Source of the DNA: Mayamaea pseudoterrestris
Taxonomy: Eukaryota; Bacillariophyta; Bacillariophyceae; Sellaphorales; Sellaphoraceae
Assembly (NCBI GenBank): GCA_027923505.1
Contig: BROI01000010.1
Location: forward strand, 310,001 to 374,000
DNA: 64,000 bases
Reading direction: 5' to 3'
A program made the translations under genes and the position numbers. This document shows positions 4,068 to 63,564 of the stretch, piece by piece. The notes beneath the pieces were generated by a model, which ran no database searches, was not told the DNA's origin, and worked only from the letters and a program-made list of their open reading frames with translations. Positions within the stretch are counted from its first letter, which is position 1, and each line of letters opens with the position of its first letter.

Positions 4068-4895
4068 CTATTGCTTCATGGTTGGTCGTCGCATGGCCAT
4101 GCGACGCATTTCCTCCAAAGAAGGAATTTGACTCGAGTCAAGCAAGTCATCGGTCAAGCGTCCCTGTGTTCGATAGTCCGAAACTGACGCTGCCATGTTT
4201 GCCACGGCCACTCGTAGCGAGTCAATGTTGCGCGACTGGAGCGCTTTTGCGTATAGTTGATATGCTATTTGAAAGGCTAGAGCGTCAGCCTTCATCTTTT
4301 TGGCAAAGTCCGTCGTCAAGCTCAAGCCTTGGCCATCAAGCGAGGATTGATATAGCTGCAGCGGCAAGACAGCATTGTCTGCCGTCTTGCTAAAATCCTC
4401 AAGTAATTCCCAGTTTGATTCAGCAATGGCGTCTGGTATCGACACAAGTTCCTGCGAAAGCTTTTGAATGCGCGGCAAGTATCGCTTCTTTGCCGTAGGA
4501 TAGTAGTAGGAGCTTCGAAGAGTTGGATCAATCTGGCCCTTGCCTACGGCATTGTTGGGTACTTGAGCTGTCGCCGGGGCAACCTTCTTTTCGATATTCT
4601 TTGGGTCGGTGCCGTAGTCGTCGAGTAAACCGGCATTAGCAGAAGACGCTGCAACGAAAATAGTAGGGACTGCAGGAGTAATGGAATACATCATGTTTCG
4701 CCTGGTAACAGCAAATAGACTTGTAGAGCTTTGAAAAGGTGGTGATAAAGCTTCTTCTGGTAGAGGATGTCGATAACGTTGTTCAAGTGACGATGGAAAA
4801 GCATTCTTGAGAGCTGACAATGGCGCATACGCATGACCGGAAGTTACACTAAGCGCCATAGCAAAAACATGCTGTATTCTAATCATCCTATACAT
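4068..4895 (-). CDS. Thylakoid-lumen protein, possible PsbQ/Psb31-type helical bundle
   Basis: Single exon, 275 aa from the ATG at 4895; the open frame runs further upstream but has no other ATG. The N-terminus is a plastid bipartite leader: MYRMIRIQHVFAMALS signal, cleavage at GHA/YAP, a transit-like stretch, then a second, twin-arginine signal (RRNMMYS, hydrophobic core, SSANA/GLLDDYG) typical of Tat-dependent lumen import. The mature part of about 187 residues is almost all helical and ends in EEMRRMAMRRPTMKQ. Size, helicity and lumen routing fit the PsbQ/Psb31-like extrinsic photosystem proteins of diatoms. No residue-level signature proves this, so another lumen protein of photosystem I or II is possible. 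It is divergent from the BET gene at 5225. Confidence 0.7.
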   Translation of the reverse strand: MYRMIRIQHVFAMALSVTSGHAYAPLSALKNAFPSSLEQRYRHPLPEEALSPPFQSSTSLFAVTRRNMMYSITPAVPTIFVAASSANAGLLDDYGTDPKNIEKKVAPATAQVPNNAVGKGQIDPTLRSSYYYPTAKKRYLPRIQKLSQELVSIPDAIAESNWELLEDFSKTADNAVLPLQLYQSSLDGQGLSLTTDFAKKMKADALAFQIAYQLYAKALQSRNIDSLRVAVANMAASVSDYRTQGRLTDDLLDSSQIPSLEEMRRMAMRRPTMKQ

Positions 4896-6445: not shown

Positions 6446-7378
6446 TCATTCGTCAAAGTGAACTCGTCGCTCGTTCGGTCGATTTGCAAACGCATCCATC
6501 ATTGTGTAGGGAAGTTCCGTCTGCGTTATTGTACTTGCATCATTCGAATCCGCTCGCTGAACAAGTACTTGCAAGTCTTGCTCAAGCACATGCTTGGGAA
6601 TCATTCCAATCAATGCCGTTTCAACACTTCCATTAGCATCCACTAGCGCAATATGCGGAATGGCGTCCACACCAAACGTTTCAATCGCTTTATAGGTATA
6701 AGAGTCACTCAAGTCCCCATTGACCAATACGAAATTGACGCGGTCGCCAAACTCTTGCTGAATCATGAACATGGTCGGTGCTTCCTCCTTGCAATTCTTG
6801 CACCAGGGTGCCCAAAACTGAACCAGCGTTGGCTTTTGGTTCGTTCCAATGATGCTCAGTGGCGGTGAACGCGCCTGCATGCTTGCCAATAGTTGCAAGG
6901 ATGATAGTGGATGAGTGTAGTGCCACGCGTAGTTGGAAACGGCGAATACGACGCTGGCGACTGCAACTAGTGCGTTGCGGCGAAGCATGGATTGAATCGA
7001 AGAGTTGCTGTCACTTGATGTTGCTTCTGTTGCTGATGGTTCTCTGATACCAAAGGTAGTACTGGCTGCAGCAGCAGACGTAGAAACAGTCGAGGGGCGA
7101 CGCAGTTGAACCACTTGTCCAAATTGTGGCAAAGGGGTTAAAGCTTCGTCCATTTGCGTTGTATGATTGCTGCTGCTGGTTATTGGCGTTGACAGAACAA
7201 ACTTTTCATTCGTTGTTGCAGTCTCGTCTGACGCAGCTGTCATAGATCTACAAGTCGGACTTCTTTCATGGCGTTCGAATGTTCCTGCGGAATACCTGTG
7301 CTTGTCGGGAGCTGTGATAAAGGCTGCATTCCCTTGCAAACAGCAAAGGCAGAGTAATAGCAGCTGATGCATCTTCAT
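6446..7378 (-). CDS. Membrane-anchored plastid thioredoxin (HCF164/TxlA-like)
   Basis: Single exon, 310 aa from the ATG at 7378; a second ATG at 7372 is equally good. The leader MKMHQLLLLCLCCLQGNA/AFIT is a signal peptide with a plastid-type cleavage site. One hydrophobic segment (about residues 135-152, NALVAVASVVFAVSNYAW) anchors the protein. The C-terminal domain is a thioredoxin fold: LVQFWAPWCKNC with active-site CxxC at about 192-196, then VDAIPHIALVDANG with the cis-proline. HCF164 and cyanobacterial TxlA have the same plan and pass reducing power across the thylakoid for cytochrome b6f assembly. That role is inferred from architecture; other membrane thioredoxins remain possible. Confidence 0.8.
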   Translation of the reverse strand: MKMHQLLLLCLCCLQGNAAFITAPDKHRYSAGTFERHERSPTCRSMTAASDETATTNEKFVLSTPITSSSNHTTQMDEALTPLPQFGQVVQLRRPSTVSTSAAAASTTFGIREPSATEATSSDSNSSIQSMLRRNALVAVASVVFAVSNYAWHYTHPLSSLQLLASMQARSPPLSIIGTNQKPTLVQFWAPWCKNCKEEAPTMFMIQQEFGDRVNFVLVNGDLSDSYTYKAIETFGVDAIPHIALVDANGSVETALIGMIPKHVLEQDLQVLVQRADSNDASTITQTELPYTMMDAFANRPNERRVHFDE

Positions 7379-12630: not shown

Positions 12631-12899
12631 CCAGCATTTTCTTCTTTTAACACAAGTGAAGTACATAACAAGGAATTATCAAAATGATTCATCGTCGCGG
12701 ACGGATCGGTGGATGGTGTCGAAACTAGGCTTGCGTGCAAAGCGGTACTGAAATGTTGAGTTTCATTGGCGAAGATACCTACGAAGACAATCACTCGCTA
12801 ATTGAACGACCCGGCAGGCTCGCCTCGCTCGAACATTCTGTGTCGGAGGGAAGCCATGCACCCACAAATTCTTTCACAGCGACACAACAAATCTCCACC

Positions 12900-14009
12900 A
12901 TGATCATGCACCAACATCTTGCTGCTCTTCTGCTGCTAGCGACGGCTATAAGACCTACTGTTGCAGCCAAGTATCCAGATACATGCATTTCATCATCGTC
13001 ATCGTCATTTGGGGTCTACAGCAGTCGCGTCACCTCTCGACAGAAGCACGAGGAACGCATGGAAAGCGCCTACCGATCCATTCGCCCAACGACAACATGC
13101 TCTTCAACGACAAACTCATTAACTCGCCAAGAGGAAGACGAAGATGAAGTGGACTATGACATTCAAGACGAGGCTGCCACCAAGTTTGACCGATTCGAGC
13201 CAACGACAACGACTCTACATTGCGCAACTACCAGCAATCATCACAGAACACGAAACTACCACCGCCAGCAACAGCCCCGGCAGGAGCATCATCCATTTTT
13301 GCAGATTCCTTGTCAACTAGTAGCATCCGCTGCCATGCAGGAGGATTCGATACCCGTGTCAAGCAGTCGATCCTCGAAACAAGCATCAACGCGAACAAGT
13401 AGCGCATCCGACTGTTGCTGCTGCATTGACACTGGCGCCCAGCGCTCGGTCATGAGTTTGGAGTGCGCCAAGGCGTGTGGATTAATGGCGCATGTCGATC
13501 GTCGGTATGCTGGTCAAGCGGTTGGCGTGGGAGGAAGTGTGTCCGTCCTTGGTCGCATTCCGGCTGGAGTTGTTCAACTGCATTGCAGCTCAGAGCGACA
13601 AGAGAATACGAGCAGAAGAAACAAGCATGCTGATGACTCGTTGTCATTATCAGTCATGGCTCCAAGTATTATTATCATTGAGCGCATTGGACCCAAGACG
13701 ACTGGAGCATCGTCGAGCGAACAGAATCAATCGATTGATTTACTACTAGGTCTCGACTTTTTGCGCGAGCACCAAGCTGTCTTGGATCTACAAAAGGAAG
13801 ACTTGCAGCTGCAAGTGAATGGCCGCTTACTCAGTGTACCGTTCATGCGACCAAAAGTGAAGGGAATTTTATCGGCAAAGTCAGCATTTGGAATCAAGGG
13901 TGGTGCCATAACTCGCACGCAAGGCATGTCCAAGGAAGAGTATGCCGACTTCAGCGACGACGAAGACTTTGACTTTGATCCAGACGGTGTTGACTTGACA
14001 GGCTTTTGA
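12900..14009 (+). CDS. DDI1-type retropepsin-fold protease with secretory leader
   Basis: Single exon. The ATG at 12900 sits in ccaccATG, and the protein (369 aa) starts with a signal-like leader MIMHQHLAALLLLATAIRPT followed by VAA. The catalytic region reads CCCCIDTGAQRSVMSLECAK (D177 in DTGA), then CGLMAHVDRRYAGQAVGVGG and LLLGLDFLREHQAVLDL. These are the three blocks of the host DDI1/DDI2 aspartic protease domain (DSGAQ..., DRRWAG.A.GVG, LLGLDMLRRHQ). The N-terminal ubiquitin-like domain of DDI1 is absent, as is any UBA domain; instead there is a low-complexity Ser/Thr/His-rich stretch. The C-terminus is acidic (FSDDEDFDFDPDGVD). It acts as a homodimer in known relatives. A plastid or secretory location is inferred from the leader. 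It is a host-type gene: no gag, RT or LTR is nearby. Confidence 0.8.
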   Translation: MIMHQHLAALLLLATAIRPTVAAKYPDTCISSSSSSFGVYSSRVTSRQKHEERMESAYRSIRPTTTCSSTTNSLTRQEEDEDEVDYDIQDEAATKFDRFEPTTTTLHCATTSNHHRTRNYHRQQQPRQEHHPFLQIPCQLVASAAMQEDSIPVSSSRSSKQASTRTSSASDCCCCIDTGAQRSVMSLECAKACGLMAHVDRRYAGQAVGVGGSVSVLGRIPAGVVQLHCSSERQENTSRRNKHADDSLSLSVMAPSIIIIERIGPKTTGASSSEQNQSIDLLLGLDFLREHQAVLDLQKEDLQLQVNGRLLSVPFMRPKVKGILSAKSAFGIKGGAITRTQGMSKEEYADFSDDEDFDFDPDGVDLTGF

Positions 14010-21519: not shown

Positions 21520-23105
21520 TTAGTAGTAAAATCGACGGTATCTTGGTACCTCCTCCTCAATAGGCTCCTCCTCCTCTTCCAAAGTGACTGGCGAGCTGGT
21601 TTCCGTCGTGATCACTTCTTCCGCAGGAAGGATGCCCTTCTTCTTCTTAGCATTCTTCTTCTTGTCCTTCTTATCCTTCTTGTTCTTCATCATTCTCTGT
21701 GGCTCCTTGCAAACATCTCCCTTGATCTTTTTGGCCACCTGGAGGCGACGTTTCATTCCCGCCTTGGCGCCCGGGCCGCCTGGGCCTCCCTTGATCTTCA
21801 TGCCCTTCGTGTCTCCCTTGATTTTCATTCCTTTGGCACCCTTGATCATCATCATGTTACCCTTTGGCACTTTCATGCCGGTGGGGCGAGGAGCTCTAGT
21901 AGGAGCACAAGTTGGGCGAGGACGCATCGTCGGGCGCATGGTTGGGCGCCTTGTTGGACGCTAAAATGTTGAAATGGTAGAGAAAAGTTGGGTCAGCAAT
22001 GGTCAAGCAAGACAGCTAACAATAAAACCTTTGAACATGTGTACGTACCATTGTCGGTCTACGGGTCGGCATCATGGTCGGGCGACGAGTAGGCATCATC
22101 GTCGGGCGACGAGTAGGCATCATCGTTGGACGACGAGTGGGGCGCATAGTCATCGTCGGTCTACGCGTAGGAGTCTTGGTAGTAGGTCTGCGAGTCGGCA
22201 TCATGGTCGGACGACGCGTAGGAGCCCTGGTCATCTTAGGTCGCTACGATTGATTAAAAAGATACTGGGTAAGTACTGTGTTTCCACGAAGAAGAAAGAA
22301 CAAATAATTATGCAACGCACCTTCGTCGGATTCGGAGTTGGCATTCCAGTAGGACGCTTCGTTGGCCTCATTGTTGGACGTTTGGTCGGGTTTGGAGTTG
22401 GCATGCCCGTAGGACGCTTCGTTGGCATCATTGTTGGACGTTTGGTTGATGGAAGAGTTGGTCTTGGAGTTGGACGCTTTGTAGGGCGAAGCGTGGGCAA
22501 CTTTGTCGGATTTTTTGTAGGCACCTTTGTAGGTCGTTTCGTCGGGGTTTTGGTTGGAGCTTTCGTTGGCCTTTTGGTTGGAATTTTGGTCGGAGCTTTC
22601 GTTGGTACTTTGGTTGGCGGACGAGTTGGAATGCTGGCGCTTCCAGGAGGCAGTACCGACCCACTGCTGATGGGAGGAGGCACAGCGCCGGATGCGCTGC
22701 TGAAGGGCGGGACGACCGACGCGCTACTAATGGGCGTAGGGACGGCACCAGACGCACTGTTGAAAGGCGTCGGCACAGCTCCTGATGCACTGTTGAAAGG
22801 AGTTGGTACAGCTCCTGACGCGCTGCTGGAGATGGAGGCAGCTCTTCCTTCTCCATCCTCGACTGGCGGAATACCGAATTCGTCAAACAACCGGCCAGCA
22901 AGGGCACGAGCATCCTGTGCGTTGCAGTAGAAAAGGGAGAATTAGATGTAAGCCATTGTCCCAAAGATGTCGGTCGTTACGCAAACGATGATTTGATGTT
23001 TCGTACCATTGTCTCCTGCACCTCTTCTTCCATATTGGCTTCCGGAACTCCTGCGGATTTCGCAGCCGCCAAGAAACTTGCCACGATCAGCAAAGAAAAT
23101 TTCAT
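21520..23105 (-). CDS. Secreted PT-repeat and MKIKG-repeat protein, wall-protein-like
   Basis: Four exons, 23007-23105, 22321-22914, 22049-22243 and 21520-21960 (introns 92, 77 and 88 bp, all phase 0), encode 442 aa. Order: signal peptide MKFSLLIVASFLAAAKSA; an acidic segment; DARALAGRLFDEFGIPP; SASGAVPTP repeats; about 60 Pro-Thr units (PTKxPT, then PTRRPTMMPTRRPTMM); a Lys/Gly/Met segment (MIKGAKGMKIKGDTKGMKIK); KRRLQVAKK with an RXL tripeptide; a poly-Lys stretch; and an acidic, Tyr-rich end (EEEVPRYRRFYY). Exon edges fall between repeat units, so the array looks grown by unit duplication. The composition is that of extracellular, probably glycosylated, wall proteins; lysine-rich ends suggest polyanion or silica contact (inferred). 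A TGACGTCA box lies about 230 bp upstream of the start. Confidence 0.8.
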
Positions 23106-36903: not shown

Positions 36904-38254
36904 TTACTCTTCGCACAACCAAATGTTCAGAGCGTACTTGATTCCTTTCTCTACTGACAGGCCCGCATGAATCGTTCGAGCATCAGGCTCTCCGGATGGC
37001 AGTATATTCTGCCATACTACTGCTCGTCCAGCCTGTGGTTGCACAGTCAGTCCAAGCGACGGAAACTGGGTCTGCCCTCCCTCCTCCACGTCGTTGAGAT
37101 AACAGAAAATGGTTACCAATCGTCTGTTGCAGCCTCGCACATGAATTTGCTTCGGAGGAAGCTCGACGGTGCCAGTGTCCACGTCATAATTGCCCAAATC
37201 ATGATGCACACCAAAGAACTCACCCACATGGTAACGCACCAGCTGCAGTGCCTCCACGGATCCTGTCGTAAAACAACCCATTAGAGTCGCGGCTCGCTGC
37301 TCAATTGCAGCAATCTTGGAATTTTGTCGCTTATCAAAGGATAAGAATGTACTCGTCCGATGTGTCGTGTCAAAGTGACGTTCCATTGTTTGGGGATTGT
37401 CGACGTAGGATCGCTCAAACGGCATGTTGCTGATACATGAGCGAAAGTAGTCCAAGTCGGATGAAGTCAAAAAGTTGTCAATGGTGTATATGTTGGGCGA
37501 AGAATGGACGCGCTCCAACATCCAGTTACCAATCCGAATGGCATGAGCTAACGGAGAGTCAGTTAGCTCATCAAAAAGTTGCTCAAAGCGACGTCGAGCT
37601 AGCGACGTCCGCTCCCATAGTTGAATGCGCTGGAGATAGAGCATAGTTTTACAGTGAGGCGAGACTTGCGACCCTTTCTCGCGTACCAGTCATTATTGTG
37701 GCACGTACATTTGAATTTCGCTTTGAACGACGACGTTTTTTGCTTGTGTCCACCTTCTTTTCGTCCGTCAAAATCCCGCGCTTGACCTCGCTCACTATTG
37801 GCTTATGAAACGTTCCATCATTTGTGAATGGAGCTGCTCTGGAAGGGGTTGCGACGGGCGAAAATGCGACACTGATGATTTGAGGAACTGCTGGAGAAGC
37901 AGTTTGGATTGTACTTTGTTTCACCAATCCATAAATGCCAGCGTCGCTACAGCAGCCTTCCATTCTTCTGTCTTGAGCTCCAGCAACTTGCTGCCCATCT
38001 TCGTCTTTGGTAGCAGAGTCATGCAGCACAGAAATGCGCATGACATCGCTCGCGGAACTTTTCTGCAACGGCGCTTCAGTCCCTGTCATGCTGATCTCTT
38101 GCGTCTCATGTGTATACGGCAACTCGAACATTTTCAATCCAGCCTGCATATTACTGTTTCGCCAGCTGTGATGCAATATGTTGCGAACCGCACCGATGAA
38201 CAAATGCCTTTCATCCCATGGTGAAGGAATGACGGAACGAATGAAGCGTTGAAT
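36904..38254 (-). CDS. Prolyl-4-hydroxylase-like 2OG dioxygenase with basic N-terminal extension; 5' end unresolved
   Basis: Two frames five bases apart (stop at 37649, ATG at 37644) are best read as one gene. A GTACGT donor after NSN (37708) and a ctccag acceptor (37630) define a 79-bp phase-0 intron, so exons are 37709-38254 and 36904-37629. The C-terminal domain is P4H-like: LVRYHVGEFFGVHHDLGNYD (His-x-Asp), RLVTIFCYLNDVEEGGQTQF, ARTIHAGLSVEKGIKYALNI (second His, Lys). The N-terminal part has IQRFIRSVIPSPWDERHLFI and a basic KKRRRSKR cluster. An acceptor at 38255 (gtgacag/ATT) suggests one more upstream exon carrying the start; MSWRRFKS at about 38400 is one weak option. Known P4Hs hydroxylate proline in wall proteins, collagen or regulators. 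It is divergent from the secreted protein gene at 38495. Confidence 0.75.
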
Positions 38255-38494: not shown

Positions 38495-40229
38495 ATGAAG
38501 CTAGCATCCGCCGCCTGCATTTTCCTCGCCACTTCCGTCGCTGCCTTTCGCCGTAATATTGGTGATGACCATGACGAGGCGCGTCGCCTCTTTGCGCGAC
38601 CGCCAGAAAGTCCAGACAGTGACGGACGAATGCTTGCAAGCGGCTCTGGCAGCTTTGTTCCACCAATAGCGAGCGGCAGTGGCAGTGGATCTGTTTCGGT
38701 AAAAGGTATGTTGAGTTGTAAGTAAATGCTGCAGAGTAACGAATGGTATTTCCTCATCGCTCGTCTCGCTTCGCAGGGTCCAAGTCTAGCAAGGGAAAGG
38801 GTGGCAGTAAAGGTACGCATGCTTGAGAAAGAGCGAGTCTCATTGTTTCAATCTATACAATACTCACGCGTCGGCTGTCTTCCATTATATAGCTTCAAAG
38901 GGTAAGGGATCACCAAATGCATCCAAGGGAAAAGGAGGCGGCAAAGGATCAGCCAAAGCAAGCAAGGCAGGATCGCATGAGCATCACAGCCAAGGAAGCG
39001 GGTCAGGTGCTTCTGGATCCATTGTACATGGTTCTGGATCCGTCGATATGTCAGTCGCCGGATCTGGTTCCGTAGCAAGTTCTGGATCAGTCGTCATGAC
39101 CTCTGGCTCGGTCGTCGCTGGATCTGGATCCGTCACCACTTCCGGCTCTGTCATGGTAGATTCTGGATCCGTTGCGGCATCATCAGGCTCAACCATGTCT
39201 ACTGGCTCAGAATCTGTTGCTTCTGGATTTGTCATGGAAGCATCAGGTTCGGGCATGTCTTCTGACTCAGGTTCAGTCGATTCGGGCTCAGTTGTCGCGT
39301 CATCAGGGTCAGTCATGTCGTCGGGATCCGTCGTTGTCGATTCTGGATCTGTTGCATCTTCTGGCTCTATGGCAACTTTGGGATCCGTCGCTTCCGGTTC
39401 AGTGGCTACTTCAGGATCTGGATCAGAAGCCACTACTAAAATGGCTGATTCGTCTGGCTCAGTCGCTCATGGTTCTGGATCTTTTCACGACAGCAGCGCG
39501 TCAGGTTCCGCCGCAGCGGCTGGTTCTGGCTCCATTCACGTCGCTTCCGGCAGCCGCTTTGTCGGTGGCGCCAAGGGAAGCAAGGGTGGTTCTAAAGTTA
39601 GCAAAAGTGGAAAGGGCAAGGGCGGCTCCAAAGCTAGCAAGAGTGGAAAGGGCAAGGGTGGCTCCAAAGCAAGCAAAAGTGGGAAGGGGAAGGGCTCGTC
39701 AAAGTTCAGCAAGAGCGGAAGGGGCAAGGGCGGTTCAAAGGAAGCATTCCAGCAATCCGGATCAGGCTCTACAAACGTGGGGTCTGCATCATTCCAAACT
39801 GGATCATCCAGCTTTGAGCATGGACGTCAACTCGGTTCATCATGTCAGAAAATTCCTATTTTCTTTTACGTCGAAGATCTTAAGGCCAAGTTCAACAAGA
39901 CGGATGTTGGCGGTTCTTTCAACAAGGCACCATTCTACTACAAGGATACGGGCGATTTGCTCGGTTACTACACCGACAGTTCTACAAGCTTTGCCGATGG
40001 TGATTGTGTCGGAACTGGGACGTTTTCCTTCGGCAAAACTAAACCATACCCCAGCCAGATATCGGTCCAGTTCACATGCACGGGTCGCCAAAACACCATC
40101 ACCGGCGGAAACGGTGACTTTGGCTGCGCCAATGGTCTTGAAATATTCACGTTTGATGACGGCGTCATTACAGAGAGTGAGCTGCTCATTTGCCGAGACC
40201 TTTGTCCGTTTCATCAATGGACGCGCTAG
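38495..40229 (+). CDS. Secreted SGS/KGSK-repeat protein with six-cysteine C-terminal domain
   Basis: Exons 38495-38705, 38777-38812 and 38893-40229 (introns 71 and 80 bp) give 527 aa. Signal peptide MKLASAACIFLATSVAA/FRR; RXL tripeptides at ARRLF and GRMLA; then GSKSSKGKGGSK, SKGKGSPNASKGKGGGKG, about 200 residues of GSxSGSVxxSSGSV repeats, and four SKxSKSGKGKGG units. HGRQLG, another RXL, stands just before the folded domain. That domain (about 130 residues) has six Cys: CQKIPIFFYVEDL, GDCVGTGTFSFG, VQFTCTG, ITGGNGDFGCANGLEIF, LLICRDLCP. The same domain ends the protein at 62704. The GDCVG-x-G-x-F and GGNG-x-F-x-C-A-x-G pattern recalls the dirigent/allene-oxide-cyclase barrel (tentative). 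Ser/Lys-rich, RXL-processed secreted proteins of diatoms include silaffins, so wall or silica work is inferred. Confidence 0.8.
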
Positions 40230-46771: not shown

Positions 46772-48228
46772 ATGAGGCTTTGTAATCGGCGGCGAACGCT
46801 GCTAGTGAATCTGCTATTACTTTGCGCAACCGTGGCGAGGAGTCTTGAAACAGAGACGACACAATCGGATCTTGACATTCGCGCGACAAGCCTGCAAAAT
46901 GACAGACGGTCATTGTTCATGTCACAGAAAGAACATGAAAAGTCTTTGACAGTATTAGAAGAGCTGCGGCAGCACGTAGCCACAGATCGGCAAGCCTCGC
47001 TGCACTTGGACAGTCGAGATTTGCTTCGACTTCGCCGCGCGGACGCTGCCTCGTTCAGTCACTTTTTTCGATCGCTGCTCCAAGCCGACACTAACGTCAA
47101 AGCTAACTCGGAGCATCGGAGAACCAAAGAGCACGGAAACATTTTTTCGCGAGTAGCTCCTGTAACAAAAGCTCCTGTCTCAAATGCTCCTCCGCCAAAA
47201 GGAAGCAAGAAGGGCAGCAAGGTTGACAACAAACTGGCTAGTAAGAGCAAAGAGTCGAAAGGCAGCGCTAAAAAGATAGCGAAAGGAGGCAGCAAAATTA
47301 CAATTAAAGGCACCAAAGGTAGCAAGGGATTAAAAGGACGAGGCATGAGTAAGGGTCTTAGTAAGAGCCAGGCGCCGAGTAGCAAGCGAACAAAGGGCGT
47401 TAAGAACGCGAAAGGCAAAATTACCAAAGCTATAAAATCCCCCAAGGGCGTCAAGAGCACCAAAAGCAAGGTATCAAAAAGCATCAAAAGCGCAATAGGC
47501 ATCAAGGGCATCAAGGATGCGACGCCTAGCAAGTCTACGAAAGGCATGATGAAGGAGAAGGGCAGCAAGAAAACGAAGGGTTTGAACAGTTCAAAAGCAA
47601 TCAAAAATGCAAAGGGAATCAAGAGTGCGAAGAACACCAAATTGAGCAAAAGTAAAGGTACCAAGGCACCAAAAGGTTCCAAGACTGGTGTTGTCAGTAA
47701 CATTATGAAAGGCGCAAGCAAAGGTTTGAAGGGTGGCGATGACAAAACAGCCAAAATCAGCAAGAAGGAAGTCGTTGCCGGCGGCAATCAAGGCACTGAA
47801 AACGTTGATGACGCTCCCACGAGTGCGCCAAAGCAATCAACTTCATTGACAGAAGCGCCTATACTAGTACTGACCATCGCGCCTCAGACTGTCGACACTC
47901 GAACTCCGTCGGAACGTCCAACACGGACACCAACAGTGCCCACCTCACCACCCACCAGAATACCTACAACACCTTCGCCGACAGGTGCACCAGTAATCCC
48001 GACGGATAGTCCAACACGACCACCGACTGTACCGACTCCACCACCAACACGATCACCGGTGAGTTAAAAGTTCACGTAGTAAAGTTATTGTGTCATCTGG
48101 CGAAGGTGTTAATACTCACAATTTTCATTTCACAGGCTTCAGTTGATTCGCAAGCTCCGTCATCGCAACCTGCATCCATCGACTCCCTCGCACCCGCGGC
48201 CGCACCAACAGCGCAAGTAGTACGATAG
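46772..48228 (+). CDS. Secreted Lys/Gly/Ser-rich protein with PT-rich tail, silaffin-like composition
   Basis: Exons 46772-48058 and 48136-48228 (77-bp phase-0 intron) give 459 aa. The ATG at 46772 lies in ttcaccATGag; the frame extends upstream without support. Signal peptide MRLCNRRRTLLVNLLLLCAT then VARS/LETET. An acidic-basic helical part of about 90 residues with RXL sites (NDRRSLF, SRDLLRL, RSLLQ) follows, then about 200 residues of loose Lys-Ser-Lys/Gly repeats (KGSKKGSKVDNKLASKSKES, TKGSKGLKGRGMSKGLSKS, KGIKSAKNTKLSKSKGTKAP), then a Pro/Thr-rich tail (RTPTVPTSPPTRIPTTPSP) and ASVDSQAPSSQPASIDSLAP at the end. Signal, RXL, lysine pairs and PT tail together match diatom biosilica proteins in style. 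A long hydrophobic frame on the opposite strand is a shadow of the lysine codons. Confidence 0.78.
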
Positions 48229-55031: not shown

Positions 55032-56618
55032 ATGAGCCAGTCGCTATCATCCTCCTCCTCCTCTCTTGAGGCTGCCAACATTGAGCTTCCCGGCGACGAA
55101 GAAGACAGTGACAACTCGGAGCGGCGAGCGAGCAACTTGCAGCACAATAATTATCCAACGATGCTGCGCGAGCGTCTAGCGGAGCCCGGAGCTGGTATTT
55201 TAGCAGCTGATGAAAGCGAAACCGACCTAATGCTACTTGATGACTGGAAAGTGACTCATAATACGGAATTTGATGACGACGCTCCATTTCTGGGAGACGT
55301 TGTTGAACCCGAAGCGGCTGCTGCCTCCACCGCTGCTCGAGTACAGCAGACTAGCGCAATCGATAAAGCGCATAACCTTGCAGCTCCTACTGTCAATAGT
55401 ACTGATAATTCCGCTGTTGCAGCTATAGGTCCATCACTGTCTTGGTCTCATCCTGAGAACGACGAGCAGGCACTAGAGGAAGTGCAAACTCCAACGTCAA
55501 AGAGTGCACCATGCACGCCTAGCAAAGTGCGCGGAAGGACGCTTCTATATGGTTTCATGCAGCCTGTTAGTATCTTGAGCAAAATGTCTCCAAATGAGAA
55601 GGATGAACGCGACATTGAAGCTGCCGATGCTATCGCCGGAACTCCTACTACGATTGACTCCAAGGACGAGGAGGGCCCCGCGTCCGAATCGGCGCTCGAA
55701 AAGGTTTCACCAACAGCCGAATCATCTCAACTTACCGACAAGCAGCGCAAATGCCGATACTGCGTCTGCATTGGCATCTTACTTGGGCTCTTGCTCATTG
55801 CGCTTGGAACGGGGCTGGGCTTGAAAAACAAGCAGCGAATGGAGTCGTCGTCACTAAGTGACAAGAGTAGTTCATCAAACAGCACCTTATCCGATGACGA
55901 ACTGGTCGAGCCTCCGTACAATTCGGCGCCGACCAAGGGGTTTCAAACGACGCAGGAACTCTACGATGCGGTGGATGTTTACCTGGCGCGGCCCATGTCA
56001 TCGGCAATTTACGATGTTGCTGCCACCTACGGATACCCAATCAACGAATGGCTGGTCGGTAATCTAACTCGATTCGATAACGTTTTTGCGGCTTCTCGGT
56101 CACCAAATTCAGTAAGCTTCAATGAGCCGCTTGACAAGTGGAACATGAGCAAAGCAGTCTCGCTGGCGTTCATGTTTGAAGGCGCTCTGGCCTTTAGCCA
56201 AGACTTGAGCGCTTGGGACACGTCCAACGTGCGAAACATGACGCGTTCCTTTGCAAATTGCCAATCATTTAACAAAGCACTCGATGCATGGACCGTGTCT
56301 CGAGTTGTAACCATGGAAGGCATGTTTCAATTAGCGACCAGTTTCAACCAGCCACTTGCCGATTGGAACGTGAGCGCCTGCGAGAATTTCTCGCGCATGT
56401 TCTTCAATGCAACGAGCTTTGCGCAAAATCTTTGTCTCTGGGGTGACACTATTGATGTTAACGCGAATGTCAGTTTAATGTTCGATGGGGCGTCAAGCTG
56501 TCCTGCTCGCTCCGAAACTCTAGATCTCGCATCAGGTGGTCCATTCTGCTCTTATTGCGGGAATTTACCGGGAGTGGAAGTACCAATTGAATTAAATACA
56601 ACCAGTGGGATGGCTTAG
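55032..56618 (+). CDS. BspA-like (DUF285) leucine-rich surface protein, type II membrane
   Basis: Single exon, 528 aa, ATG at 55032. The N-terminal 235 residues or so are acidic and Ser-rich (probably cytosolic). A membrane segment follows (CVCIGILLGLLLIALGTGLG, about 240-262). The outer part begins with a Ser-rich stalk and QTTQELYDAVDVYLA; NEWLVGNLTRFDNVFAASRS leads into DUF285 units: FNEPLDKWNMSKAVSLAFMF, FSQDLSAWDTSNVRNMTRSF, FNKALDAWTVSRVVTMEGMF, FNQPLADWNVSACENFSRMF, ending CLWGDTIDVNANVSLMFDGA. W-N/D-x-S-x-V-x-x-M units form a right-handed LRR-like coil used for binding or adhesion. Diatoms have many copies. The exact partner is unknown. Confidence 0.85.
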   Translation: MSQSLSSSSSSLEAANIELPGDEEDSDNSERRASNLQHNNYPTMLRERLAEPGAGILAADESETDLMLLDDWKVTHNTEFDDDAPFLGDVVEPEAAAASTAARVQQTSAIDKAHNLAAPTVNSTDNSAVAAIGPSLSWSHPENDEQALEEVQTPTSKSAPCTPSKVRGRTLLYGFMQPVSILSKMSPNEKDERDIEAADAIAGTPTTIDSKDEEGPASESALEKVSPTAESSQLTDKQRKCRYCVCIGILLGLLLIALGTGLGLKNKQRMESSSLSDKSSSSNSTLSDDELVEPPYNSAPTKGFQTTQELYDAVDVYLARPMSSAIYDVAATYGYPINEWLVGNLTRFDNVFAASRSPNSVSFNEPLDKWNMSKAVSLAFMFEGALAFSQDLSAWDTSNVRNMTRSFANCQSFNKALDAWTVSRVVTMEGMFQLATSFNQPLADWNVSACENFSRMFFNATSFAQNLCLWGDTIDVNANVSLMFDGASSCPARSETLDLASGGPFCSYCGNLPGVEVPIELNTTSGMA

Positions 56619-60333: not shown

Positions 60334-60903
60334 CTACTTGCGAAAGAATTTTGGCGCCTTGCTACCTTTTGGTCCTTTGCTGCCCTTGGTCTTGCTCCCT
60401 TTTGCGCCCTTGCTCTTCGAGCCATGCAGTTGACGTCTTTCGCGAAAGAATTTCGGCGCCTTGCTTCCTTTCGGGCCTTTCGGAGCTTTACTGCCCTTAG
60501 TTTTGCTTCCCTTTGAGCCCTTGACTTTCGATCCGTGCAGTTGGCGTCTGTCGCGAAAAAATTTGGGCGCCTTGCTGCCTTTCGGAGTTTTCGGACCTTT
60601 ACTGCCTTTGATTTTGCTGCCTTTAGCTTTAGATCCTTTCAGTTGGCGACGAAAGAATTTTGGAGCCTTGCTGCCCTTCGGTCCCTTACTACCTTTGGTC
60701 TTACTTCCTTTTGACCCTTTTAGCTGACGGCTGGTCTGCGAAAGCTGGCGAGCACCTCGAACCAGTTGCTGTGCTTGCTGCTCGACCTGACCACTGATGC
60801 GGCCCTCCTGAAGCTCGTTATCTAGACCTCTCGCGCCTTGATTTGTCGAGCAAGAAGCTCCAACGAGCAAAAGGAGGATTGTTAGGATAAGTTGACGCGG
60901 CAT
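60334..60903 (-). CDS. Silaffin-like secreted repeat protein with RQL processing sites
   Basis: Single exon, 189 aa from the ATG at 60903. Signal peptide MPRQLILTILLLLVGASC; a Gln-rich propeptide-like part with ARQL and SRQL; then four repeats at about 59-85, 86-118, 119-155 and 156-189. Each has the plan RRQL (or SRQL) - K/HGSK - several KGSK/TKGSKGPKGSK units - APKFFR. The RRxL edges resemble the RRIL edges between silaffin-1 repeats of Cylindrotheca and the RXL processing sites of centric-diatom silaffins and cingulins (family knowledge). Released peptides would be about 30 residues, strongly basic, with Lys spaced by Gly-Ser, suiting polyamine modification, Ser phosphorylation and silica precipitation (inferred). 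The FFR end of each unit is unusual. No homology search was possible. Confidence 0.78.
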   Translation of the reverse strand: MPRQLILTILLLLVGASCSTNQGARGLDNELQEGRISGQVEQQAQQLVRGARQLSQTSRQLKGSKGSKTKGSKGPKGSKAPKFFRRQLKGSKAKGSKIKGSKGPKTPKGSKAPKFFRDRRQLHGSKVKGSKGSKTKGSKAPKGPKGSKAPKFFRERRQLHGSKSKGAKGSKTKGSKGPKGSKAPKFFRK

Positions 60904-62703
60904 GATGAAGCTGGAGGTGGTGGAGGAGCTCGTCATTCAAACAAATGTGTGAGATTTATAATGGATGCATGTGTGCTCGCTTAAAGAAGTGGTGGCAGGA
61001 TGGAGCTCGGATCGCTTGCACTCGTGTCGGCGAAAGATCCACATGGGCTTCTAAGTGTTTTAGTACCGGATACCTATATATGGTCTGTCTGACTCTCAAG
61101 CCGGCCGATGTCACACGCTTCATTAAATGCCACCATGTGCCCAACTTTCCGAACGACCATGCTAATTGCACATTAGCGGTTGTATAGCGATCATTGCAAG
61201 TCAGAACACGTGGTATCGGCCCAACTGGTGAAAAATGGGATGTAAGCGAAAGATACAAGATTGCAGCGGCACCCCAACGCCACCGCATGCTTGCCGTCAG
61301 TCCGAGGTGCGAGCCTCGAGCCTAGCGAGGAGCGAAGGGCGAGGAATTCTTGGTGAAATGATGGTCCGAGCCATGCCATTTTTCCCTTCCCTGTTTATGC
61401 GCAATGAATGAGCATCACCACGCATGTGTTTTGTGTATGGCTGTCCATCATAGCCGCGTCATCGCCGCATCACTATAGCCTGCAGCTTGAGCATACATCT
61501 GTTCGAGACCAACAAAGGTCAAGAGTCCCAAATAGAAGATAGTTCATCCATGGAATGGTGGTAGGCGACACGACGCGCCACCTTTTGAAAATTACGATGG
61601 CGACTTGTTGCATGTGTCCTCCAAAGATTCATAATTTGCTAGCTGAGAGGATGTGGACCTGCTACCTGCTACAGTTCAGAGGAAGGAGGAAGGGCATCGA
61701 CTCCATGCTATATCAAGCACAACTCCTCGTTCTATGTTTCCAGATGCATTGGCGAGATAGTGTTGCAGATGGTGCAAGCTGCAAGCCCATCATGCGCCAT
61801 TAAATTGCTACGACTTTATACTATTTTGCCTTAATATAGCTGCAGCGTTACCATTTTTAACGTCATTGCGCAGCGAGACCTTGTCTCTTATTGCATATCT
61901 AAAAGTCATCGCCCTACGGCTGGCTTACTTTGGAATGGCCCGGATAAATTTGCGAGAGAGGTCTGTAGTATCTTACAGGAGATTGACGTCACTGCGAAGC
62001 GCGTTGCAGGCTCATTAGTTGCTCCTTTTCCATTGCCGTCATCACTAAGTAATTTTGTTCATCAAGGCGGTGTCACGCAATCAATTGGTATTGAGAGGAA
62101 GCAAAAAGCATGGACTTGATGCGATGTTCGCCGATGTCGTTCTCTCTGTATGCTATTATAGCTTTGCCGCAACCGCTTAATGGATCGATTATTAGCCAGC
62201 TCGCATTCGTGCCTGAGCAGATTTTGTTAAACTTGTCAAATGAAAGCGGATGATAAAGATGTCGGCTGCCTCATCAAACCATAACTTCTGCTTCGCCTAA
62301 TAGCTGCTGCATGATGCATGCAAAAATGCAACGAACATGAAGGCACGGACAGATAGCAAAGTCACGACTGCTGCTCATTTTTACTGCTATTGCTTCGAAT
62401 ATCGCTGAAGCGTGGCCGAATCTTTGAGATCCTCCATGTTTGCATCATTTTTGACGTTTCTCAGCTCGAGAGTCGCGTACGAAGGATCGCTGAAACAAAA
62501 CCTTGGACGAGACAACATGGCTCGCCTCGCGCGCCATATTCATATTAGAAAACGTGTTCATGACACAAAAATCACGATACTTAAGTAGGCTCGCTTACAC
62601 AATTCAAGCGATCCAAAATTGGCGAGCTTTTCACCTTTTCTGTCAAAACTTCGCACCTCTAACATCTACACTTTCGATATTCGTCGCACAGCCAAGTAAC
62701 ACC
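60904..62703. other. Divergent intergenic region, 1.8 kb
   Basis: Lies between two divergently transcribed secreted-protein genes. Contains TGACGTCA at 61984-61991. A short open frame at 61555-61803 has no protein character. No repeat or transposon is recognised. Confidence 0.4.
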
Positions 62704-63564
62704 ATGAAGTTTGCACGAACAGCGATTGCCTTTACCATCATGGCCATCTCGGCCGACGCCTTTAGCCGCGAAAAGACTCTAGAGCATTCCCAGGCAGGCG
62801 GTGGAAGATATCTCAAGCGCACGCTAGCGGGCATGACCACGGCAACTGGATCTGCGGCAACACCCGTTGCACCAGTGGCAGCACCAGTTGCGACAATGGC
62901 GCCGGTCATATCAGGGTCTGTGGCGGCGCCCGTCGCAGCTCCTGTTGCTCCTCCTACTCTCATCGCATCTGCATCCGTCGACACACCGATTGCAGCGCCC
63001 GTTGCTCCTCCTACTCCAATTGCATCTGCGTCGACTCCTATTTCTGGATCCTTGTCTGCCGTTACGGGCGGAGGCGACGGAGGAGATGGAGATGGTGAAG
63101 GTAACGTGCCAACGACATCGCCACCACCGCCAACGGCGGAAGCCTGCCGCACCATTCCCATTTTCTTCTTGAAGAGCGAGCTGACGGCCAACTATACGCG
63201 CTATGCTACTGGCGGAGGTTTCGACTCGGTGCCGTACTACAATGCCAACACGGGCGAGCAGTATGGTTTCTACAGCGACGAAGCAACCAACCTTGATTCG
63301 GGAGACTGCGTCGGCGGAGGTGTGTTTAGCTTTGGACCAACCATAAGCTACCTTGACCAAATCACCTTTTCCTTTTCCTGCTATGGAGCATCTAACTCTA
63401 TCACAGGAGGAAATGGTCGCTTTGGTTGCGCATCAGGCTACGAAATTTTCAATGCGGACGAGGTTGACCGCATCAGCTCCACCTTGTACTTGTGCGGAAC
63501 CCTGTGTCCGTACACTGGCCCCATGGATCCGGTTGCAACAACTCCTCGCACGGAAACGCCATAA
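62704..63564 (+). CDS. Secreted Ala/Pro-rich protein with six-cysteine C-terminal domain
   Basis: Single exon, 286 aa; the ATG at 62704 (acaccATGaa) is preferred over the longer frame upstream. Signal peptide MKFARTAIAFTIMAISADA/FSR; RXL tripeptides in GRYLKRTLAG; a low-complexity linker (VAAPVAPPTLIASAS type repeats, then GGGDGGDGDGEGN and TSPPPPTAEA); then the folded domain CRTIPIFFLKSEL, VPYYNANTGEQYGFY, DSGDCVGGGVFSFG, ITFSFSCYGASNSITGGNGR, FGCASGYEIF, LYLCGTLCP. All six cysteines and most glycines match the domain of the gene at 38495, so three disulfides are likely. A dirigent or allene-oxide-cyclase-like barrel is a tentative fold. Extracellular role in the wall is inferred from the family resemblance; the linker differs completely from the KGSK linker of its relative. 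Confidence 0.78.
   Translation: MKFARTAIAFTIMAISADAFSREKTLEHSQAGGGRYLKRTLAGMTTATGSAATPVAPVAAPVATMAPVISGSVAAPVAAPVAPPTLIASASVDTPIAAPVAPPTPIASASTPISGSLSAVTGGGDGGDGDGEGNVPTTSPPPPTAEACRTIPIFFLKSELTANYTRYATGGGFDSVPYYNANTGEQYGFYSDEATNLDSGDCVGGGVFSFGPTISYLDQITFSFSCYGASNSITGGNGRFGCASGYEIFNADEVDRISSTLYLCGTLCPYTGPMDPVATTPRTETP

Follow-up and report, generated by a model that had tools for sequence, protein, structure and literature searches.

The locus at 60334..60903 of a 64,000-nucleotide stretch of Mayamaea pseudoterrestris DNA (the window analysed here, GC content 48.47%, close to the 48.55% given for a Phaeodactylum-like genome in PMC11151724) raises the question of whether a small, lysine-rich open reading frame (ORF) encodes a precursor of silica-active peptides of the kind known from the silaffins, and how far the genes around it share this character.

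Structure and coding evidence of the ORF

Six-frame reading of the region showed that a single frame is open throughout 60334-60903, whereas the other five contain 4, 10, 5, 6 and 7 stops. The ORF starts with an ATG at 60903 on the minus strand and ends with a stop codon at 60334-60336; a further in-frame ATG is located at 60936 and its use would lengthen the product by 11 amino acids. The following parts were distinguished (the basis of each is given in brackets).

60334..60903, minus strand, silaffin-like precursor ORF, 189 aa plus stop (six-frame reading)
60850..60903, minus strand, hydrophobic leader of aa 1-18, likely a signal peptide, its cleavage site a guess (hydropathy)
60730..60849, minus strand, Gln-rich, net-neutral propeptide, aa 19-58, with RGL at aa 25 and RQL at aa 52 (composition)
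60649..60729, minus strand, unit 1, RQLKGSK...APKFFR, 27 aa (unit alignment)
60547..60648, minus strand, unit 2, RQLKGSK...APKFFRDR, 34 aa (unit alignment)
60436..60546, minus strand, unit 3, RQLHGSK...APKFFRER, 37 aa (unit alignment)
60337..60435, minus strand, unit 4, RQLHGSK...APKFFRK, 33 aa (unit alignment)

The original prediction described a signal peptide followed by RRQL repeats ending in APKFFR, with Lys-Gly-Ser spacing and without acidic or phospho-rich blocks. The leader was called from hydropathy alone, with an 11-residue peak of 3.17 compared with a maximum of -0.39 from residue 36 onward, and the signal peptide is retained to that extent. RQL stands at the head of all four units (aa 59, 86, 120 and 157), although the literal RRQL occurs in three of them and unit 1 has SRQL. 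Similarly, APKFFR is present in every unit (aa 80, 112, 149 and 183) but is not always its end, since FFR is followed by D-R or E-R in two units and unit 4 closes with FFRK and the stop. Between RQL and APKFFR, each unit contains KGSK-type words. The 40-residue propeptide contains nine Gln, four acidic and four basic residues, which agrees with the predicted lack of acidic blocks; the parallel statement on phospho-rich blocks is weaker, serine accounting for 13.7% of the repeat region.

The whole product consists of 20.1% Lys, 14.8% Gly and 12.2% Ser, contains one Cys and neither Trp nor Tyr, and has 53 Lys and Arg against 6 Asp and Glu residues. An older screen for silaffin-like proteins is reported to have used thresholds of at least 18% Ser and at least 10% Lys; the serine content of the ORF lies below the former value. 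In the 131-aa repeat region, 26 KxxK and 15 KGSK motifs were counted. None of 10,000 shuffles contained as many of either (shuffle maxima 20 and 4, respectively), so that the motif pattern is not due to chance, and the predicted Lys-Gly-Ser spacing is borne out. The spacing of three residues was found for 26 of the 37 neighbouring lysine pairs of this region.

The four units differ mainly in their silent positions. The aligned units showed 110 base differences, 12 at the first, 8 at the second and 90 at the third codon position. Among 176 codon pairs compared, 96 differed (79 silent and 17 residue-changing differences); these numbers are descriptive and not a statistical test, since the six unit-to-unit comparisons share units and gapped columns were excluded. 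The codon sets of the 15 KGSK words were also varied and both serine codon families were used. Taken with the mostly silent differences, this indicates that the units did not arise by fresh duplication or slippage and that their amino acids have been held. The protein sequence of the four units is held by selection and the units are old.

Likeness to silaffins, proposed processing and rival readings

The ORF is built like silaffin-1, with a unit of its own, and the likeness shown is one of design. Sil1p of Cylindrotheca fusiformis is described as having basic repeats that follow a leader and an acidic stretch, the mature peptides being without RRIL/RRNL (PMC4557024). It has in common with the ORF the order of leader, middle stretch and tandem Lys-rich units (PMC4557024), as well as R-R-X-L type junctions and GSKGSK words (PMC4557024; letters of R5 from PMC3806462). 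The two differ in the length of the units (27-37 residues vs 19 in silaffin-1 R5 as given in PMC3806462), in their number (four vs the seven ascribed to Sil1p) and in the middle stretch, which is neutral and Gln-rich in the ORF and is reported as acidic in Sil1p (PMC4557024). Moreover, the ORF is without Tyr and carries FFR at its unit ends, unlike silaffin-1. The alignment of the ORF with R5, the 19 residues which this homology comparison covered, reached a score of 36 that was matched by 167 of 2000 R5 shuffles and 174 of 2000 ORF shuffles. This is no better than shuffled sequences and gives no sign of kinship with silaffin-1.

A screen for silaffin-like proteins in Thalassiosira used an N-terminal leader of the ER signal peptide type, KXXK, a pentalysine cluster and RXL (PMC5501833). 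In that screen, X in KXXK is S or G, the motifs lie 1-6 residues apart, and a cluster has five non-consecutive lysines within 12-14 aa (PMC5501833). The ORF contains 15 K[SG][SG]K, of which nine neighbouring pairs are spaced by 1-6 residues. It also has seven RXL, one of them within the leader, and 18 pentalysine clusters, which overlap and span 12-14 residues. It fits this screen on KXXK, pentalysine and RXL, the leader being judged from hydropathy only. These features and a hydrophobic leader are those described for the silaffin-like proteins (SFLPs) of Thalassiosira pseudonana (PMC5501833); compared by description only, they differ from the ORF with its orderly tandem units headed by RQL. 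Cingulins are likewise reported as KXXK-rich with RXL, but their Trp/Tyr-rich blocks alternating with KXXK (PMC4557024) have no counterpart in the ORF, and the highly acidic phosphopeptides given as the feature of silacidins contrast with its excess of basic residues. When the literature was searched for KGSKGSK, KGSKAPK, APKFFR, RRQL and KGSKGPK, RRQL was the sole match among the matches listed.

We consider it probable, at roughly 0.64, that the ORF encodes a silaffin-1-like precursor from which cleavage at RXL would release four silica-active peptides. The chain would pass into the secretory path, and an RXL protease would cleave at RQL, yielding four peptides that are each 27-37 residues long and contain 8-10 lysines; the net charge computed for the pieces released after RQL is about +10 to +12. 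RXL has been proposed as a general cut site and KXXK as a modification signal (PMC4557024), and RXL removal has been observed in silaffins, the responsible protease being described as unknown (PMC5525289). The lysines with KxxK spacing may be modified like those of silaffins. Pentalysine clusters are reported to act as targeting signals (PMC9650480) and would direct the peptides towards the silica deposition vesicle, within which they would accelerate silica formation. The pair of Phe residues in APKFFR might play a role in self-association like that of Tyr in silaffin-1 or Trp/Tyr in cingulins, or alternatively might guide the protease to its site. The idea of a precursor of silica-active peptides gains from the leader, the tandem Lys-rich units, the mostly silent unit differences, RXL, KXXK and the pentalysine clusters, and from three further secreted-looking genes with Lys-rich segments in the window. 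Against it count the alignment with R5 at the level of shuffles, the neutral propeptide, the serine content, the absence of a Pfam family and the loss of the in-window tblastn matches under the low-complexity filter.

Other readings of the ORF were weighed against these features. Lys-rich tails are also found in DNA-binding proteins, but the strongly hydrophobic leader and the bias of the unit divergence to silent changes make it very improbable that the ORF encodes a basic protein of the nucleus or nucleolus or is functionless low-complexity sequence. A secreted precursor cut by a furin-type protease after RR would yield peptides starting with QLHGSK or QLKGSK, to be used for silica or otherwise, e.g. 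in signalling or defence. Precursors of this sort commonly contain basic peptides in tandem, and sites following the furin rule R-X-[KR]-R, namely RDRR and RERR, lie ahead of two units. However, they occur at only two of the four unit starts, whereas RXL occurs at all four, a comparison that favours RQL somewhat by construction because the unit edges were placed at RQL. Furin-type cutting as the sole rule was rated less likely on this count, and the KxxK and pentalysine design points towards silica, so that we regard this reading as improbable. An additional RQL copy is that at aa 52, inside the propeptide.

It is also unlikely that the product remains uncut as a cell-wall or mucilage matrix protein whose Lys/Gly repeats attach to polysaccharide or to other proteins of the wall. 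Such a protein would resemble Amphora AC3362, which is described as having KG repeats, as belonging to the insoluble matrix and as being nearer to cingulins than to silaffins (PMC4220933). AC3362 is, however, reported as Tyr-rich (PMC4220933), and the ORF is without Tyr. The occurrence of RQL at the head of all four units with differing codons further suggests that a cut site has been conserved. The ORF is real and under selection, and its product is a secreted-looking precursor with the design of silaffin-1.

Companion genes and domain X

Several other genes of the window resemble the ORF in part, and two of them contain a further domain, here called domain X.

38495..40229, plus strand, silaffin-like gene, 527 aa: leader, RRL, RML, KGSK/KGGSK and Ser-Gly repeats, RQL, domain X (hydropathy, motifs)
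38706-38776 and 38813-38892, plus strand, proposed introns of this gene, placed by eye
39831-40226, plus strand, copy of domain X in this gene, after RQL
46772..48228, plus strand, Lys-rich secreted-looking gene, 459 aa: leader, RSL, KGSK/KGxK region, Pro-Thr repeats (hydropathy, motifs)
48059-48135, plus strand, proposed intron of this gene, placed by eye
21520..23105, minus strand, Pro-Thr repeat secreted-looking gene, 442 aa: KxxK tail, KRRLQ, three introns by eye
62704..63564, plus strand, divergent neighbour of the ORF: leader, RYL, RTL, Ala/Pro/Val-rich linker, domain X, no Lys-rich segment
63133-63561, plus strand, copy of domain X closing this neighbour

The 38495, 46772 and 21520 genes are secreted-looking, with Lys-rich segments, and have a partly silaffin-like look; their leaders were judged from hydropathy only and their exon edges by eye. 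The 38495-40229 product contains 23% Ser and 7.6% Lys, with RQL just ahead of domain X; the 46772-48228 product has 33 KxxK and 21 pentalysine clusters, and the 21520-23105 product 13 KxxK. The strict KXXK rule holds for the 38495-40229 gene, with one pair, and not for the other two. Among the 141 stop-to-stop segments of at least 100 aa in the window, at least two K[SG][SG]K were found in three, namely the ORF itself and portions of the 46.8- and 38.5-kb genes. Pro-Thr repeats have been reported for 14 silaffin-like proteins (PMC5501833).

Unfiltered tblastn of the ORF within the window gave best E values of 1.3e-15 for the 46.8-kb gene and 3.8e-8 for the 38.5-kb gene. These matches disappeared under the low-complexity filter and therefore reflect a common composition only. 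Two 8-mers common to three of the five 400-base upstream stretches of five genes were counted without a control and were not used. Pfam assigned no family to the ORF or to the 38.5-, 46.8- and 62.7-kb genes read as unspliced ORFs (E up to 0.1).

The two copies of domain X, the only ones detected in the window by tblastn, are 47% identical over 124 residues. They had no match in Pfam (both copies, E up to 10) or among PDB sequences. Confidence in their structural models is modest (mean pLDDT of 65 and 62, from two sequences each), and the models are not independent, as both were built from one pair of sequences. In the Foldseek search of the PDB, the first model matched allene oxide cyclases, dirigent domains and a Diels-Alderase at ranks 1-11; E ran from 4.9e-3 to 0.15, with no match at 0.001 or better, the rmsd was 4.4-6.1 and the TM by query 0.47-0.59. 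For the second model, ranks 1-7 were all allene oxide cyclases, and a Diels-Alderase followed at rank 8. Over these eight, the rmsd was 5.0-11.8, the TM by query 0.46-0.53 and E between 6.6e-4 and 0.13, with three matches at 0.001 or better; rank 9 was unrelated. The rmsd of the best match was 4.4 for the first and 11.7 for the second model. Domain X has in common with the allene oxide cyclase (AOC)/dirigent barrel its predicted barrel and its best Foldseek matches, which are weak: the top seven rows of either search show 16-18% identity, and TM-scores are about 0.5. It is unlike these barrels in its secreted-looking hosts and in the joining of one copy to a silaffin-like segment. Judged from these models, domain X is likely a barrel of the AOC type. 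The literature search found no paper on dirigent or allene oxide cyclase proteins in a diatom context.

Pattern searches with domain X gave 165 matches in bacterial and archaeal genome contigs and 54 in viral contigs, none of which was confirmed; the same applies to the 37 matches of the ORF in viral contigs, and phage proteins contained no relatives of the ORF. The collections searched hold bacteria, archaea and viruses, so absence from them says nothing about diatoms.

Some further genes lie in the window. A 2OG-Fe(II) oxygenase is encoded at 36904-37644 on the minus strand (Pfam 2OG-FeII_Oxy_3, E 2.5e-12), and the 38495 gene starts about 850 bases away from it. Silaffins carry hydroxylated lysines, and a link of this oxygenase to their hydroxylation is speculation. 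On the plus strand, the product of 12753-14009 has an aspartyl protease domain of the retropepsin-like type (Pfam Asp_protease, E 3.3e-15), and that of 55032-56618 has DUF285 matches (E 2.9e-41). A leader followed by GNAAFITAP was seen on a thioredoxin at 7378, and a leader followed by GHAYAP at 4895 on a protein without a Pfam match; we take these motifs to resemble those of diatom plastid proteins, which would fit an alga with a secondary plastid. Rfam yielded nothing at the gathering score over the window and ARAGORN nothing.

Possible meaning for silica formation

The joined barrel-like domain is a more surprising part of the finding than the ORF itself. We suggest only tentatively that the window belongs to a biosilica gene neighbourhood whose shell-building module would be a secreted AOC/dirigent-type barrel, joined through RQL to a silaffin-like Lys-rich segment in one gene and, in another, encoded head-to-head with the silaffin-1-like polyprotein. 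If so, domain X would act as a folded partner of disordered silica peptides, through binding or catalysis. The 38495-40229 gene, combining a silaffin-like segment with the barrel-like domain, offers a testable handle on the placement of such peptides.

The classic peptides that precipitate silica are those of the silaffin-1 kind, basic, arranged in tandem and cut at RXL, and yet silaffin-type proteins barely align across species. If the ORF is a second precursor of silaffin-1 design, ending its units with APKFFR and having no Tyr, it would show that the features kept are the KxxK spacing, RXL and an aromatic spot.
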